DNA of 15,707 nucleotides from a bacterium (GTDB lineage Bacteria > UBP6 > JAFGXH01). The stretch lies in the NCBI GenBank assembly GCA_027064085.1, contig JAMOQH010000056.1:1-15707 (forward strand), in the 5' to 3' direction. The notes under the pieces were generated by a model. That model was not told where the DNA came from. It did no database searches and saw nothing but the letters and a program-made list of their open reading frames with translations. Of the stretch, positions 2,295 to 15,707 are shown piece after piece (within the stretch, counting starts at the first letter, position 1; every line of letters begins with the position of its first letter). The position numbers and the translations under genes are program-made.

Positions 2295-3848
2295 ATGTTA
2301 TATTCAAAAGCAATTATTAATACAAGTAGAGAAAATCTTTCTGATAGTAATGTCAAATCATATTCTCTTATGGTTAGAGCTTCTTTAATAAAAAAAATGG
2401 GCTCAACTTATTACTCATTCTTACCCTTAGGCAATAAAGTTTTCAATAATATATTAAATCTTATTAATAAAAAATTAGAAAACAATGGAGTATTAGAGGT
2501 TTCTAATGGTTATAACAATGAAACACTTCTTTATTCTATGGTAAAGCAATACATAAATAAAGTTAATGACCTACCAATTATATTGTCTTCTACAAAGGAG
2601 ATTAATAGAAAAAACAATACAAAATCAGGCTATGGCCTATTATATAACTCTTTAACTAATGTAAAAAAAATTGAATCTATCTCTTCAAATTTAAAACAAG
2701 CTAGAGAGGTTTTTAATCAAATTGCAATAGTATTTAAAGAAATATTTGCAGAATTAAATATTAAAGTTCAACCCATACAAACAGGCGAAGATAAAGCAGA
2801 AATACTAGCTTTTTTAGAATCAGGTAATACCGAGTATTTATTATGTGAACACTGTAATTACTCAGCATCAACAGAGCATATCATTCCTTATTTTCATAAA
2901 CCCTTATTACCATCTAAAAACAAAATGGAAAAAGTTTATACTCCAAATATAAAATCTATAGATGATTTATCAAAATTTTTCAATTTACCAAAATCTCATT
3001 TTATTAAAACAGTTTTTTTTGATGTTGATGGTAAAAAAGTACTCACAATTTCAAGGGGCGATAGAAGAGTTTCTGAAGATAAATTAAAAACTTTATTTGA
3101 TACTAAAAAAATAAAGCAAGAAGACTTAAGATATGTAGAAAGAGTTTTAGCATTACCTGTTGGCTTTATAGGCCCTATAGATTTAAAACACATATATATT
3201 GTAGCTGATTACTCCATAAAAGGAATGAAAGATGCAATAAGTGGAGCAAATGAATTAAATTATCATTATAAAAATGTAAATATCAAGCGAGATTTTGAAG
3301 TTGATATAATAGCAGATATTACAGAAACTGTAGGTGGAGACATTTGCCCTATTTGTAAGCAAGGTAGTTTATTTAAGGGAAATGGAATAAAACTAGCAAG
3401 TTTAGATATTGATAAAGAGGCTAATAATATTGAAGTAATAAATAATAATAAAAAACAAAATGCAATATTATCTTTTTTTGAAATTGATTTAAATAGAGTA
3501 TTTTCTATCTTAGTTCAGCAAAATAACGATAAAAAGGGTATTATTTGGCCTAAATCTATCACTCCCTATGATATTTTAATTATTCTAGTTAAAAATAATG
3601 AACTAAACACAAATGAAGTTAAAAAGTTTCAAAATGACTTAAAAAATAAAAACATTTTAATAGATGATAGAAATAAATCTATGGGTATTAAATTTAATGA
3701 TAGTGAATTGCTGGGCATTCCATATAGAATTATTATTTCTAAAAAAGCAATAGAAAACAACTTATACGAAATTACATCAAGATATAACTTAAAAACACAA
3801 AAAATGAATTATCAAGATATTATTAGTTTTATAAACAAGGAAGGATAA
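2295..3848 (+). CDS. Prolyl-tRNA synthetase-like protein lacking the aminoacylation signature
   Basis: This 517-residue relative of bacterial prolyl-tRNA synthetase (ProRS, about 570 aa) begins MLYSKAIINTSRE, like the family. The N-terminus (RASLIKK...YYSFLPLG, to about residue 46) aligns with class II motif 1. The motif 2 region, normally an FRDE, RPRFG and REF.MKDAYSF series, is replaced by EINRKNNTKSGYG and unrelated residues. Motif 3 keeps Arg401 but loses its glycines (FEIDLNRV). The inserted YbaK-like editing domain (about 214-340) keeps FIKT with Lys238, RGDRRVSEDKL (254-264) and GFIGP (290-294). The anticodon-binding domain (about 422-517) is well kept (DDRNKSMGIKF, LLGIPYRI). I infer that it cannot form Pro-tRNA and may edit mischarged tRNA-Pro in trans. 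A fast-evolving true ProRS cannot be excluded. The start rests on homology, the promoter at 2245-2273 and GGGGA at 2288; ATGs at 2286 and 2226 are alternatives. A downstream SDR gene begins 1 nt after its stop. Confidence 0.75.
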   Translation: MLYSKAIINTSRENLSDSNVKSYSLMVRASLIKKMGSTYYSFLPLGNKVFNNILNLINKKLENNGVLEVSNGYNNETLLYSMVKQYINKVNDLPIILSSTKEINRKNNTKSGYGLLYNSLTNVKKIESISSNLKQAREVFNQIAIVFKEIFAELNIKVQPIQTGEDKAEILAFLESGNTEYLLCEHCNYSASTEHIIPYFHKPLLPSKNKMEKVYTPNIKSIDDLSKFFNLPKSHFIKTVFFDVDGKKVLTISRGDRRVSEDKLKTLFDTKKIKQEDLRYVERVLALPVGFIGPIDLKHIYIVADYSIKGMKDAISGANELNYHYKNVNIKRDFEVDIIADITETVGGDICPICKQGSLFKGNGIKLASLDIDKEANNIEVINNNKKQNAILSFFEIDLNRVFSILVQQNNDKKGIIWPKSITPYDILIILVKNNELNTNEVKKFQNDLKNKNILIDDRNKSMGIKFNDSELLGIPYRIIISKKAIENNLYEITSRYNLKTQKMNYQDIISFINKEG

Positions 3849-3849
3849 T

Positions 3850-4794
3850 ATGAAAAGAGTTGCAATAACAACTAAAGATTTCCATTATGCAAATCAACTA
3901 ATAAAAGATTTATTAGAAGACGAAAGAATTGAAAAGATTGTAGTAATAGGTAAAGATTTGACTATCCCAATGATAGATAAAATTGTTTATATCGATACAC
4001 TACCATATTTCCCATTATCTACAATTTTAAAAGAGAATAAAGTTGATACTATTGTTAATTTCATGAAAATAGATGATGATACTTACTCTAGTAAAGAGGC
4101 TTATAATATAACTTTACAGTCTTTAAAAAACATAATGTCTTCAGGGGTTAGAGCAGGAGTTAAAAACTTTATTCTCTATAGCTCTGCAGTTGTTTATGGA
4201 GTAAATAAAAAGAAAAAATTGATTAGTTTTGAGCCTACTAGATTAAAAAAAGCTGGAAGTAAGTTTTATTATTCTAAATTAAGATTTGAATCTGAAAAAA
4301 TAGTTTATGAATATATGGATGAATTTCCTGAACTAAATATTAAAATAGCGAGAACATCTTTTACTTTAGGGCCAAATATTAATAATTTAATTTCTGCATA
4401 TTTAGGGCTTAAATTTATACCTATGGTTACACATTATAATCCCGAATTTCAATTTGTTCATGAAGATGATGTTGTTAGAGCATTCCACCATTTAATTTTT
4501 AATGGAGAAAAGGGAATATATAACATAGCTCCTGATAGCAGTATTTCATTAAAAGAAATATCTGAAATAATGGGGCATAAACTAGTATCTTTTCCTAAAA
4601 TATTAGCAAAACAAATAGCATTTTTAAGTTGGTATACAATGCCAAAAGTATTAAAAATACCTCCATATTCTCTTAATTTCTTTATGCACTCACTGTTAAT
4701 TAATAATGAAAGTCTTACAAAAACAGGATTTAAATTTAATTATACAACAGAGGAAACAGTTAAAGCATTTAAAAAATTTAAAGAACATTTTTAA
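3850..4794 (+). CDS. NAD-dependent epimerase/dehydratase-like (extended SDR) protein, atypical motifs
   Basis: This 314-residue protein has an extended short-chain dehydrogenase fold. Family landmarks are SSAVVYG (111-117), YYSKLRFESEKIV (Lys143 with Glu at +4), ARTSFTLGP (167-175) and QFVHEDDVVRA (201-211, the common FVHvdDva block). The usual N-terminal TGxxGxxG nucleotide loop is missing: the first strand is followed by TTKDFHYANQ. The residue four before Lys143 is Phe139 where the family has the catalytic Tyr, although Tyr140 and Tyr141 are adjacent. It may bind a nucleotide or sugar without classic redox catalysis. The substrate is unknown. The ATG is preceded by AAGGA inside the last codons of the upstream gene, with a 1-nt gap, so translation is probably coupled to the ProRS-like gene. 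The SDR fold is well supported; the activity is uncertain. Confidence 0.75.
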   Translation: MKRVAITTKDFHYANQLIKDLLEDERIEKIVVIGKDLTIPMIDKIVYIDTLPYFPLSTILKENKVDTIVNFMKIDDDTYSSKEAYNITLQSLKNIMSSGVRAGVKNFILYSSAVVYGVNKKKKLISFEPTRLKKAGSKFYYSKLRFESEKIVYEYMDEFPELNIKIARTSFTLGPNINNLISAYLGLKFIPMVTHYNPEFQFVHEDDVVRAFHHLIFNGEKGIYNIAPDSSISLKEISEIMGHKLVSFPKILAKQIAFLSWYTMPKVLKIPPYSLNFFMHSLLINNESLTKTGFKFNYTTEETVKAFKKFKEHF

Positions 4795-4803
4795 GGTTTA
4801 ATT

Positions 4804-5934
4804 TTGATTTATTTAGATAATGTATCTGGTATCCCACCATTAGAAGAAGTAAAAAATAATATTAATAAAAATTTAAGTTACTCTTACAATCCATCTTCTT
4901 CCTACTCATTAGGGCAAAAAGTTAATTCAGAAATACAAAAAACAAGAAACTTAATAGGAGATATCTTTAATATTACTCCTAATAATGTGATTTTTACATC
5001 AGGAGCAACAGAAGCTAATAATTTGGCTATATTTGGATATAAAAACAAAAGAAATACCCCCTACTCTATTGCATATTTAGGATTTGAGCATAATTCAATA
5101 ACAAAACCTCTTAAATACTTAGAAAAACAAGGCCATAGTTTAGTTAAATTGAATTATGACGATATTGTAAACAACATAGATAAAGTAGTTAATATCTTAA
5201 AAGAAAATAAAGTATCTTTTTTAGCATTAAGTCATAGTTATCCTAATATTGGTATATTATTACCTATTGAAAAAATTGTAAAAAAAATAAAAACGGAGCT
5301 TACAAGAATACACATTCATATTGATATGGCTCAATCTTTTATGAAAACAGATTTAAAAATGGCTAATATTGATTCAATTTCTATTTCAGGTCATAAAATA
5401 GGAGCATTAAAAGGAGTTGGAGCATTAATACTAAAAAATAATCAACTCATAAACCCAATAATTATGGGTGGAAAACAAAATTTTTCATTAAGAAGTGGAA
5501 CAGAAAATATTTTAGGAATTTTATCATTTAAAGATGCAATAACAGTATGGAATAATAATAAAGAGCTTTTTAAAAACAATCTTTTAGATCTAAATATATG
5601 TTTTAGAAAACAATTTAAAATTGTTTTTAGTGAGAATAAAAATGTTAAACTAATAACTCCTAGTGAAAACTATACTCGTAATATCATTACTATAGCTGTA
5701 AAGAACATACTTTCAGAGCATATTATTAGATTTTTAGATGAAAAAGAAATAATGATTTCAGCATCATCTACTTGCAGTGATTTAAATTATAAACCACCAT
5801 TTTTAGATTTAATCAATTTACCAAAAGAATTCCATAACGGAATAATAAGAGTTTCATTTTCTCCATTTAATAAAAATAGTGAAATTGATAGCTTTTTTGA
5901 GTATTTTCAAAAGGGAATAGAATATTTTAAATAA
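4804..5934 (+). CDS. Cysteine desulfurase-like class V aminotransferase (NifS/IscS family)
   Basis: This 376-residue PLP enzyme of the NifS/IscS group normally takes sulfur from L-cysteine for Fe-S clusters or thiolated tRNA. MIYLDNVSG opens as in the family. NPSSSYSLG (29-37), FTSGATEANNLAI (64-76), His96 (FEHNS), HIDMAQS with Asp174 and Gln177, SGHK with the PLP lysine Lys198, and RSGTEN (230-235) are all present. Cys324, in SASSTCSD, occupies the persulfide cysteine position. The usual NNE(I/T)G block is changed to SYPNIG (145-150), which is unusual. The start is TTG at 4804, chosen because the translated N-terminus aligns with the family; AAGG lies 7 nt upstream. It follows the SDR gene by 9 nt and is the last gene of the operon. 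Catalysis looks possible; the sulfur acceptor is unknown. A selenocysteine-lyase or other class V role is the alternative. Confidence 0.82.
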   Translation: MIYLDNVSGIPPLEEVKNNINKNLSYSYNPSSSYSLGQKVNSEIQKTRNLIGDIFNITPNNVIFTSGATEANNLAIFGYKNKRNTPYSIAYLGFEHNSITKPLKYLEKQGHSLVKLNYDDIVNNIDKVVNILKENKVSFLALSHSYPNIGILLPIEKIVKKIKTELTRIHIHIDMAQSFMKTDLKMANIDSISISGHKIGALKGVGALILKNNQLINPIIMGGKQNFSLRSGTENILGILSFKDAITVWNNNKELFKNNLLDLNICFRKQFKIVFSENKNVKLITPSENYTRNIITIAVKNILSEHIIRFLDEKEIMISASSTCSDLNYKPPFLDLINLPKEFHNGIIRVSFSPFNKNSEIDSFFEYFQKGIEYFK

Positions 5935-8484: not shown

Positions 8485-9177
8485 ATGGTAAAGTTTTATA
8501 ATAGTTCAGAAGAAGCAATTTTTGATATTGAAGATGGTGCAACTATTTTAGTAGGCGGTTTTGGGTTAACAGGAATACCTGAAAACACATTGAAAGCAGT
8601 TAATAAAAAAGAAATAAAAGATTTAACCATTGTTTCAAACACTGCTCATACAGATAAACATGGACTTGGTCCAATTTTTGAGAAAAAACAAATTAAAAAG
8701 TTTATGGCTTCTTATATTGGAGAAAATCCTATTGCAGAAAAGCAATTTTTTAATAATGAATTTGAACTAGAACTTATTCCTCAAGGTACAATAGCAGAAA
8801 GATTAAGAGCTAAAAGTGCGGGTATCCCAGCTATTTACTTAGCAGCAGGAGTTGGAACAGAAGTTTCCGAGGGTAAAGAAATCAGAATTTTTAATGGCAG
8901 GGAATATTTACTTGAAACTGCTCTAGGGGGTGATTTTGCTCTTATAAAAGCATGGAAAGCCGATAAAGAAGGTAATGTTGTTTTTAGAAAAACTGCAAGA
9001 AATTTTAATCCTGTTATGGCAAGTGCTGCAAAAATTACTATAGTTGAAGTTGAAGAAATTGTAGAAAGTGGAGAACTAGATCCAGATTTTATACATACTC
9101 CTAGTATCTATGTCGATAGAATAATTTACGGTGAAACTTTTGAAAAACCTATAGAATTTTTAACAACTAGAGACTAA
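8485..9177 (+). CDS. scoA: 3-oxoacid CoA-transferase subunit A (alpha), without adjacent beta subunit
   Basis: The 230-residue length is typical of AtoD/ScoA alpha subunits (about 220-235). The family signature DGATILVGGFGLTGIP (17-32) is complete. The later blocks LIPQGTIAERLRA, GIPAIYLAAGVGT and ALIKAWKADKEGNVVFRKTARNFNP are also characteristic. The complex moves CoA between succinyl-CoA or acetyl-CoA and 3-oxoacids or short fatty acids. The catalytic glutamate is on the beta subunit, which is normally encoded immediately downstream; here the next gene is unrelated and on the other strand. The ATG follows AGGAG (8475-8479) by 5 nt. Its 3' end overlaps the convergent gene by 4 nt. The fold assignment is firm; the partner and substrate are unknown. 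Confidence 0.9.
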   Translation: MVKFYNSSEEAIFDIEDGATILVGGFGLTGIPENTLKAVNKKEIKDLTIVSNTAHTDKHGLGPIFEKKQIKKFMASYIGENPIAEKQFFNNEFELELIPQGTIAERLRAKSAGIPAIYLAAGVGTEVSEGKEIRIFNGREYLLETALGGDFALIKAWKADKEGNVVFRKTARNFNPVMASAAKITIVEVEEIVESGELDPDFIHTPSIYVDRIIYGETFEKPIEFLTTRD

Positions 9178-14933: not shown

Positions 14934-15707
14934 AAAGGATTTTATTGATTTTATTAATTATTTTTAATATGGGCTTTTCTTTATTTGAAAAGGAGAATAC
15001 CAAGGTAGAAAGAGGTAACAATTTTTTAAAAGAAGGGAAATTTAAAGATGCTACAGATAATTTTTTAAGCTCTCTTAAAGATGATTTATCAGATAAACCT
15101 TCTGTCTACTATAATCTAGGAAATACTTATTATAAACAAAAAAATTATCAAGAAGCAATAAATAATTATCTAAAATCATTGAAATCTAAGAATCAAGAAG
15201 TTAGAGACAACTCTTTTTATAATATGGGAAACTCTTATTTTAACTTAAAAAAATATGATAAAGCTTTAAAATATTATAAAAAATATGCTCATAATAATCC
15301 TAATGATATAAATGTTAAACATAATATTGAAGTTTTACAAAAAATTCTTAAAAAACAACAAAAACAAAATAAAAATAACAAAGACAAGAAAAACAAGAAA
15401 GACAAAAAAGACAAAAAAGATAAGAATAATAAACAAGATAATAAAAATAAAGAAAAGAAAGACAAAGATAGCAAAAAACAAAATCAAGATAAGAGTAAGG
15501 ACGAGGCGTCGACTCGTCCAAAAGACAATAAAAATAAAGAAAAGAAAGACCAAAGTAAGGACGAGTCGTCGACTCGTCCAAAAGACAAACAAAATAAAGA
15601 TAAAAAAGACCAAAGTAAGGACGAGGCGTCGACTCGTCCAAAAGACAAACAAAATAAAGATAAAAAAGACCAAAGTAAGGACGAGGCGTCGACTCGTCCA
15701 AAAGACA
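14930..15707 (+). CDS. batC: BatC-like TPR protein with Lys/Asp-rich repetitive tail (partial, runs off the edge)
   Basis: The 259 codons present begin at ATG 14930, overlapping the batA stop (ATGA); AGGAAA lies just upstream. MKRILLILLIIFNMGFS is a signal peptide or membrane anchor. Three TPR units follow: VERGNNFLKEGKFKDATDNF (26-45), VYYNLGNTYYKQKNYQEAI (59-77) and FYNMGNSYFNLKKYDKAL (96-113). This matches BatC-like proteins that follow the VWA gene in bat operons and probably offer a periplasmic protein-interaction surface. From about residue 140 the sequence is a disordered Lys/Asp/Asn/Gln linker. From residue 189 it becomes a 20-residue repeat with the core KDEASTRPKD, at least four times, open at the window edge. 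The repeat DNA is GC-rich at its core and uses codons such as GCG, TCG and CGT that are rare in the neighbours. Total length unknown. Confidence 0.8.
   Translation, partial: MKRILLILLIIFNMGFSLFEKENTKVERGNNFLKEGKFKDATDNFLSSLKDDLSDKPSVYYNLGNTYYKQKNYQEAINNYLKSLKSKNQEVRDNSFYNMGNSYFNLKKYDKALKYYKKYAHNNPNDINVKHNIEVLQKILKKQQKQNKNNKDKKNKKDKKDKKDKNNKQDNKNKEKKDKDSKKQNQDKSKDEASTRPKDNKNKEKKDQSKDESSTRPKDKQNKDKKDQSKDEASTRPKDKQNKDKKDQSKDEASTRPKD
15494..15707 (+). repeat. In-frame 60-bp tandem repeats, each with a GC-rich palindrome
   Basis: Copies begin at 15494, 15554, 15614 and 15674 (the last cut by the edge), exactly 60 bp apart, and encode a 20-residue period. Each contains a 21-bp dyad (15499-15519, 15559-15579, 15619-15639, 15679-15699): GGACGAGNC, loop GTC, GACTCGTCC. 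In the second copy the 9-bp arms pair perfectly (N=T); in the others one base differs (N=G). The dyad is about 70% GC in an otherwise A-rich context. The last two copies are identical over the visible part, which suggests recent duplication. Confidence 0.9.

Follow-up and report, generated by a model that had tools for sequence, protein, structure and literature searches.

Why would a bacterium keep a full-length prolyl-tRNA synthetase (ProRS) that seems unable to charge its tRNA? The question arises from a homolog encoded in the stretch of 15,707 nucleotides analyzed here (the window), which makes up the entire contig C56 of a draft genome (G000; 3.65 Mb, 94.7% complete). The genome belongs to a small phylum, sampled here in 28 species. 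Together with two genomes of a sister genus (G001 and G002), G000 represents family f1, and f2–f4 are the other families of the phylum.

The frame of the window protein is open from ATG 2226, a possible upstream start giving 540 aa, to the stop at 3846–3848. ATG 2295, the start chosen in the first-pass annotation, is preferable because its N-terminus matches the family and GGGG precedes it. Matches to the models of the bacterial, INS-containing enzyme (ProRS-II) span the length of the protein, but their scores do not reach the cut-offs (NCBIfam PRK09194, 9.6e-87, 292 bits vs. 558; TIGR00409, 5.1e-66, 224 bits vs. 307). Homologous PDB chains are 5znj, 2j3l, and 5ucm. Pfam identifies the tRNA_edit domain (PF04073; 4.5e-17, 62.7 bits vs. 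a cut-off of 25.5) and the anticodon domain (PF03129; 2.8e-14), whereas the class II core (PF00587), which matches an ordinary relative at 1.2e-37, goes undetected by the Pfam search in the window protein and in its ortholog of G001. The protein has the domain order of a type II ProRS (INS, then class IIa anticodon domain) and fails its score cut-offs (PRK09194, TIGR00409, and PF00587).

Features of the ProRS homolog and of the adjacent gene (positions in the window)
Feature	Position	Strand	Remarks
CDS, full-length ProRS homolog (window protein)	2295..3848	+	517 aa; bacterial-type, INS-containing (type II)
N-terminal piece of former aminoacylation domain (motif 1 region to INS start)	2295..2843	+	TxE loop lost, ~25 residues deleted; from alignment
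Motif 2 remnant	2598..2636	+	EINRKNNTKSGYG where FRDE.RPRFG expected
First CxxC pair (CEHC) of four-cysteine knuckle	2844..2855	+	C184/C187, conserved in both orthologs
INS/tRNA_edit domain (PF04073)	2940..3281	+	Sole one detected in G000
Editing-site lysine, E. coli K279 equivalent	3006..3008	+	From alignment; kept in G001 ortholog too
Editing-domain aspartate, E. coli D350 equivalent	3207..3209	+	From alignment; kept in G001 ortholog too
Editing-domain histidine, E. coli H369 equivalent	3264..3266	+	From alignment; kept in G001 ortholog too
Second CxxC pair (CPIC)	3345..3356	+	C351/C354; from alignment
Motif 3 remnant	3471..3527	+	Glycines lost; arginine (3495–3497) kept; from alignment
Anticodon-binding domain (PF03129)	3573..3839	+	DDRNKSMGIKFNDSE block kept
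SDR epimerase/dehydratase gene	3850..4794	+	1 bp downstream of the window protein CDS; 65% identity neighbor in sister genus

Elsewhere in the window, the third gene of the apparent operon (4804–5934) codes for a NifS-like cysteine desulfurase that scores far under the family cut-offs (187 vs. 531 bits) and is not adjacent in G001. A gene for CoA-transferase subunit A (8485–9177) is followed directly by a gene on the opposite strand, with no adjoining subunit B. At the end of the window (15494–15707), a 60-bp tandem array of 3.6 copies with 96% matches runs off the contig; it encodes the terminal KDEASTRPKDKQNKDKKDQS repeat of a TPR-like protein, itself encoded downstream of a VWA protein (a BatA/BatC-like pair).

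The window protein was aligned with 32 ordinary ProRS-II, including that of E. coli and 21 of the same phylum. Positions whose invariance among the ordinary proteins reaches 93% or more were taken as near-invariant, which gives 90 in the catalytic domain, 26 in INS, and 19 in the anticodon domain. The window protein retains 28 of the 90 catalytic positions, compared with 22/26 in the editing domain (Fisher p = 2e-6) and 14/19 in the anticodon domain. In a leave-one-out analysis, ordinary ProRS-II keep a median of 100% of near-invariant positions and, apart from one protein (L047, see following), at least 74% of the catalytic ones. In the TxE proline-binding loop GPTHEE has become NGYNNE, adjoining the deletion. 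Where FRDE, RPRFG, and REFxMKDxYSF are expected in motif 2, there is INRKNNTKSGYG followed by unrelated residues; the LGTKYS segment ahead of motif 3 is deleted, and in motif 3 MGCYGIGVTR is replaced by LSFFEIDLNR. Whether the motif 2 arginine is kept is ambiguous, as its place is flanked by an R and a K, and the arginine of motif 3 survives in the window protein but is N in the ortholog of G001. Motif 2, the TxE loop, and the motif 3 glycines of a type II ProRS are thus all missing, and motif 2 is replaced in the ortholog as well. By this alignment, the aminoacylation site is destroyed. This bears out the first-pass annotation, which described a ProRS with a replaced motif 2 and a motif 3 without glycines that had lost its synthetic site and kept its editing and tRNA-binding parts; the state of the two arginines refines it.

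The editing domain retains the equivalents of E. coli K279, D350, and H369, of which the last two matter for editing and specificity. The K279A mutant of the E. coli enzyme is editing-defective (PMC3973320). The protein thus has the marks of the INS superfamily, i.e., the INS fold, the near-universal lysine, and the pocket residues. The RGD and GFIGP motifs, the four cysteines, and DDR..G.KF are common to the window protein and the G001 ortholog, and the cysteines are also present in the ProRS-II of other members of the phylum. The editing residues and the anticodon block are therefore as close to the family pattern as was first described. An AlphaFold2 model, built from an input alignment of ordinary ProRS, is ProRS-like (mean pLDDT 81, pTM 0.74); its confidence drops below 50 at residues 71–78 and 107–115, where the TxE and motif 2 loops used to be. 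It aligns with 8w8j over 513 residues (Z 39.8, rmsd 3.1). The modeling suggested in the first-pass annotation thus predicts the bacterial ProRS fold over the whole length, although a fold alone is no proof of function.

The first-pass annotation had proposed a search for a second proS, whose absence would leave a merely divergent ProRS. Contig C132 of G000 encodes a type I ProRS (ProRS-I, the archaeal/eukaryal type, without INS), with motifs 1–3 intact (PF00587 at 3.9e-17) and truncated only by the end of the contig. By that criterion the first-pass reading is not refuted. Complete ProRS-I above the TIGR00408 cut-off are present in G001 and G002, and an intact ProRS-I is thus found in 3/3 genomes of f1. 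Families f2–f4 have ordinary INS-containing ProRS-II, and no complete ProRS-I was found among them. Could the window protein nonetheless be a divergent enzyme still charging tRNA(Pro)? The predicted fold and the motif 3 arginine would fit, but deletion or replacement has removed the TxE loop, motif 2, and the GTKYS segment, the search with PF00587 detects nothing in either ortholog, and ProRS-I is intact in all three genomes; because of these losses and the intact ProRS-I, we reject this explanation as exceedingly improbable. No tRNA_edit/INS-type domain was found besides the window protein in G000, nor besides the ortholog in G001, and the unassembled 5–7% could hold a free-standing ProXp-ala. 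The tRNA(Pro) genes of G000 (UGG and GGG) have G35, G36, C1:G72, and A73. A single clade of the window protein with the phylum's own ProRS-II, as in vertical descent, is neither favored nor rejected (p-AU 0.11).

The collection of orthologs proposed at first yields a syntenic protein of 533 aa in G001, with catalytic losses alike. The two proteins form one clade in the tree of INS and anticodon domains (support 100/97). Identity over the catalytic, INS, and anticodon domains is 18%, 39%, and 31% between them, compared with 81%, 47%, and 60%, respectively, between ordinary ProRS-II of families f2 and f4. Measured by these identities, domain constraint is inverted in the pair relative to the ordinary ProRS-II of the phylum. 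Synonymous sites are saturated between the orthologs. In INS, codon positions 1 and 2 agree at 0.53 and 0.63 between G000 and G001, vs. 0.29 and 0.29 in shuffles; agreement is also well above shuffles in the anticodon domain and less so in the catalytic one. In G001, as in the window, the gene is followed by an epimerase (314 aa), of which no close homolog was found elsewhere in the phylum. That the sister genus has an ortholog with common losses, synteny, and inverted constraint speaks for a role in editing or tRNA binding rather than for a pseudogene. A decaying remnant, left without selected function when ProRS-I replaced ProRS-II, would account for the low overall identity between genera and for a catalytic domain whose similarity is barely detectable. 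It would not be expected to keep frames of 517–533 codons unbroken where the DNA is AT-rich and other genes of the two genera are down to 65–80% identity, nor such conserved codon positions in INS and the anticodon domain, nor to retain editing residues selectively, and we regard decay as quite unlikely.

Some observations count against a protein devoted to editing only. The window protein evolves fast, with 30% identity between G000 and G001, compared with 80% for ProRS-I, 71% for ThrRS, and 65% for the epimerase neighbor. The G001 ortholog keeps just 8/19 near-invariant positions of the anticodon domain. Finally, the gene and the epimerase are both missing from G002, which is probably an assembly gap, since this genome is 82% complete. 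Fast evolution and the partly eroded anticodon domain of the ortholog would also be expected if the protein had been recruited to a new role connected with tRNA or amino acids (regulation, the binding of uncharged tRNA(Pro), or the editing of some other mischarged tRNA, e.g., Cys-, Ser-, or Abu-tRNA), hydrolysis of Ala-tRNA(Pro) having become secondary or lost. The conserved epimerase neighbor has no evident link to translation, and INS-family relatives vary in amino-acid specificity (PMC11295145). Nevertheless, no portion of the protein is better kept than the editing-site residues, in two genera and in a second phylum (see following), and a search of G000 and G001 found no further INS-type domain on which ProRS-I, itself without editing, could rely. 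Recruitment to another role is thus a minority possibility, though one to be kept in mind.

Taken together, the kept INS and anticodon domains, the dead synthetic site, and a ProRS-I without editing lead us to take the window protein as a trans-editor serving ProRS-I. Specifically, it is probably a ProRS-II that no longer activates or charges proline and is maintained as a dedicated trans-editor of Ala-tRNA(Pro); we infer all three of tRNA binding, hydrolysis, and alanine specificity. In family f1, Pro-tRNA(Pro) would be made by ProRS-I, which lacks an editing domain. The window protein would use its anticodon domain to bind mischarged tRNA(Pro) at bases G35/G36, the 3′ end of the tRNA would be presented to the INS site, and this site would hydrolyze Ala-tRNA(Pro) in trans, the residual class II domain serving as a scaffold and possibly as a dimer interface. 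On its own, the INS domain of the E. coli enzyme is not specific for tRNA(Pro); it relies on the anticodon domain reading G35/G36, while ProXp-ala recognizes the acceptor stem (PMC3973320). Such a dependence would explain why an editing-only ProRS-II retains both domains. Alternatively, the protein could be a non-catalytic partner in a complex with ProRS-I, so that editing would effectively occur in cis of a two-enzyme assembly. The class II fold is predicted to persist, duplicated ThrRS form such editing heterodimers (PMC4787780), and YbaK makes a ternary complex with ProRS and tRNA (PMC11295145), but ProRS-I and ProRS-II are only distantly related, which leaves such a complex very improbable.

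Trans-editing by a former ProRS-II, if correct, may extend beyond one family. Among 389 genomes, each at least 90% complete and mostly from other bacterial families, 275 have a TIGR00409 match at 1e-25, with 269 over the cut-off. The six below are the two f1 proteins, three ordinary synthetases without INS, and one protein of G130, a genome from another phylum of which there are two genomes only. Weak matches in G089 and G216, where the frame is an ordinary ProRS-I, and in G352, a 505-aa class II synthetase without INS and with intact motifs, were rejected as dead ProRS-II. The protein of G130 is a ProRS-II of 550 aa, catalytically dead by its motifs (L132, 254–1903, contig G130:C173): FRDE reads FIDW, RPRFG reads KPKSG, GPTHEE reads LPDSHL, and motif 3 is lost. 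It keeps 22/26 near-invariant positions in INS and 16/19 in the anticodon domain, vs. 34/90 in the catalytic domain, and is still weakly matched by PF00587 (5.3e-08). G130 also has an intact ProRS-I (PF00587 at 9.5e-21; locus L137, contig G130:C183, is noted together with L132 for the pair). The dead ProRS-II gene is the first of its contig, with at least seven more ORFs after it.

The G130 protein keeps the stretch deleted in f1, and in the tree it branches separately from f1. The catalytic losses are thus likely independent, although the test does not reject one common origin (p-AU 0.073). Dead ProRS-II alongside ProRS-I, as recognized by motifs, are rare yet found beyond one lineage. With its intact ProRS-I, the G130 case strengthens the pseudo-synthetase reading put forward in the first-pass annotation, which the second ProRS and the ortholog of f1 also support, trans-editing being the putative activity. 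More tentatively, and with somewhat more doubt than belief, one may see in f1 and G130 a new class, in which ProRS-II would have been converted repeatedly, in unrelated phyla and alongside an editing-less ProRS-I, into dead, tRNA(Pro)-specific, anticodon-reading trans-editors.

A partly eroded synthetic site is found in L047 (4706–6385), a ProRS-II from the Erysipelotrichaceae MAG RUG12046 with a catalytic near-invariant score of 0.61. FRDE is retained, GPTHEE has become CSSSEE, RPRYG has become SIEYG, and a motif 3 glycine is lost. L047 may be a second copy or stand at an intermediate stage.

Among known systems, bacterial ProRS-II (TIGR00409, PRK09194; 2j3l, 5znj, 8w8j) resemble the window protein in whole-length homology, domain order, editing residues, anticodon domain, and predicted fold, but the latter lacks the TxE loop, motif 2, GTKYS, and the motif 3 glycines and scores far under the cut-offs. 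The INS trans-editors (ProXp-ala, YbaK, ProXp-x, and ProXp-ST1/ST2) likewise have an INS-type domain apart from a synthetic site, and the expected job of the window protein, clearing Ala-tRNA(Pro) where ProRS lacks INS, would be that of ProXp-ala. However, they are single-domain proteins, as a 2024 review states of all members of the INS superfamily except the INS domain of ProRS (PMC11295145), whereas the window protein is a three-part protein of 517 aa with a full synthetase body and an anticodon domain. The closest functional analog is ThrRS-ed, present in some archaea (PRK14938), a Ser-tRNA(Thr) hydrolase that also keeps editing and anticodon domains while another ThrRS charges. The window protein matches PRK14938 weakly, through the anticodon domain. 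ThrRS-ed derives from a ThrRS with an unrelated editing domain, and since the whole-length homology of the window protein is to ProRS, the analogy is one of design. Streptomyces ProRSx is also a duplicated, diverged bacterial ProRS with a specialized role, but it has synthetase activity and attaches proline to a special tRNA, and it is the sole ProRS entry in a review of duplicated synthetases (PMC9437257). An editing-only ProRS is not described in the literature searched, which lacked most subscription papers, and no such case was known at first pass either. As far as found, a ProRS-derived, editing-only trans-editor is new, INS trans-editing and the ThrRS-ed design being already known.

If this interpretation is right, the automatic label "proline--tRNA ligase" would be wrong for the window protein, in which nature would have separated the editing site of ProRS from the synthetic one. 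How anticodon recognition reaches the INS site is an open question (PMC3973320), and such communication could be tested cleanly in a protein with no competing synthetic site. In these bacteria, translation quality control would have survived the replacement of a synthetase, the old enzyme staying as proofreader.
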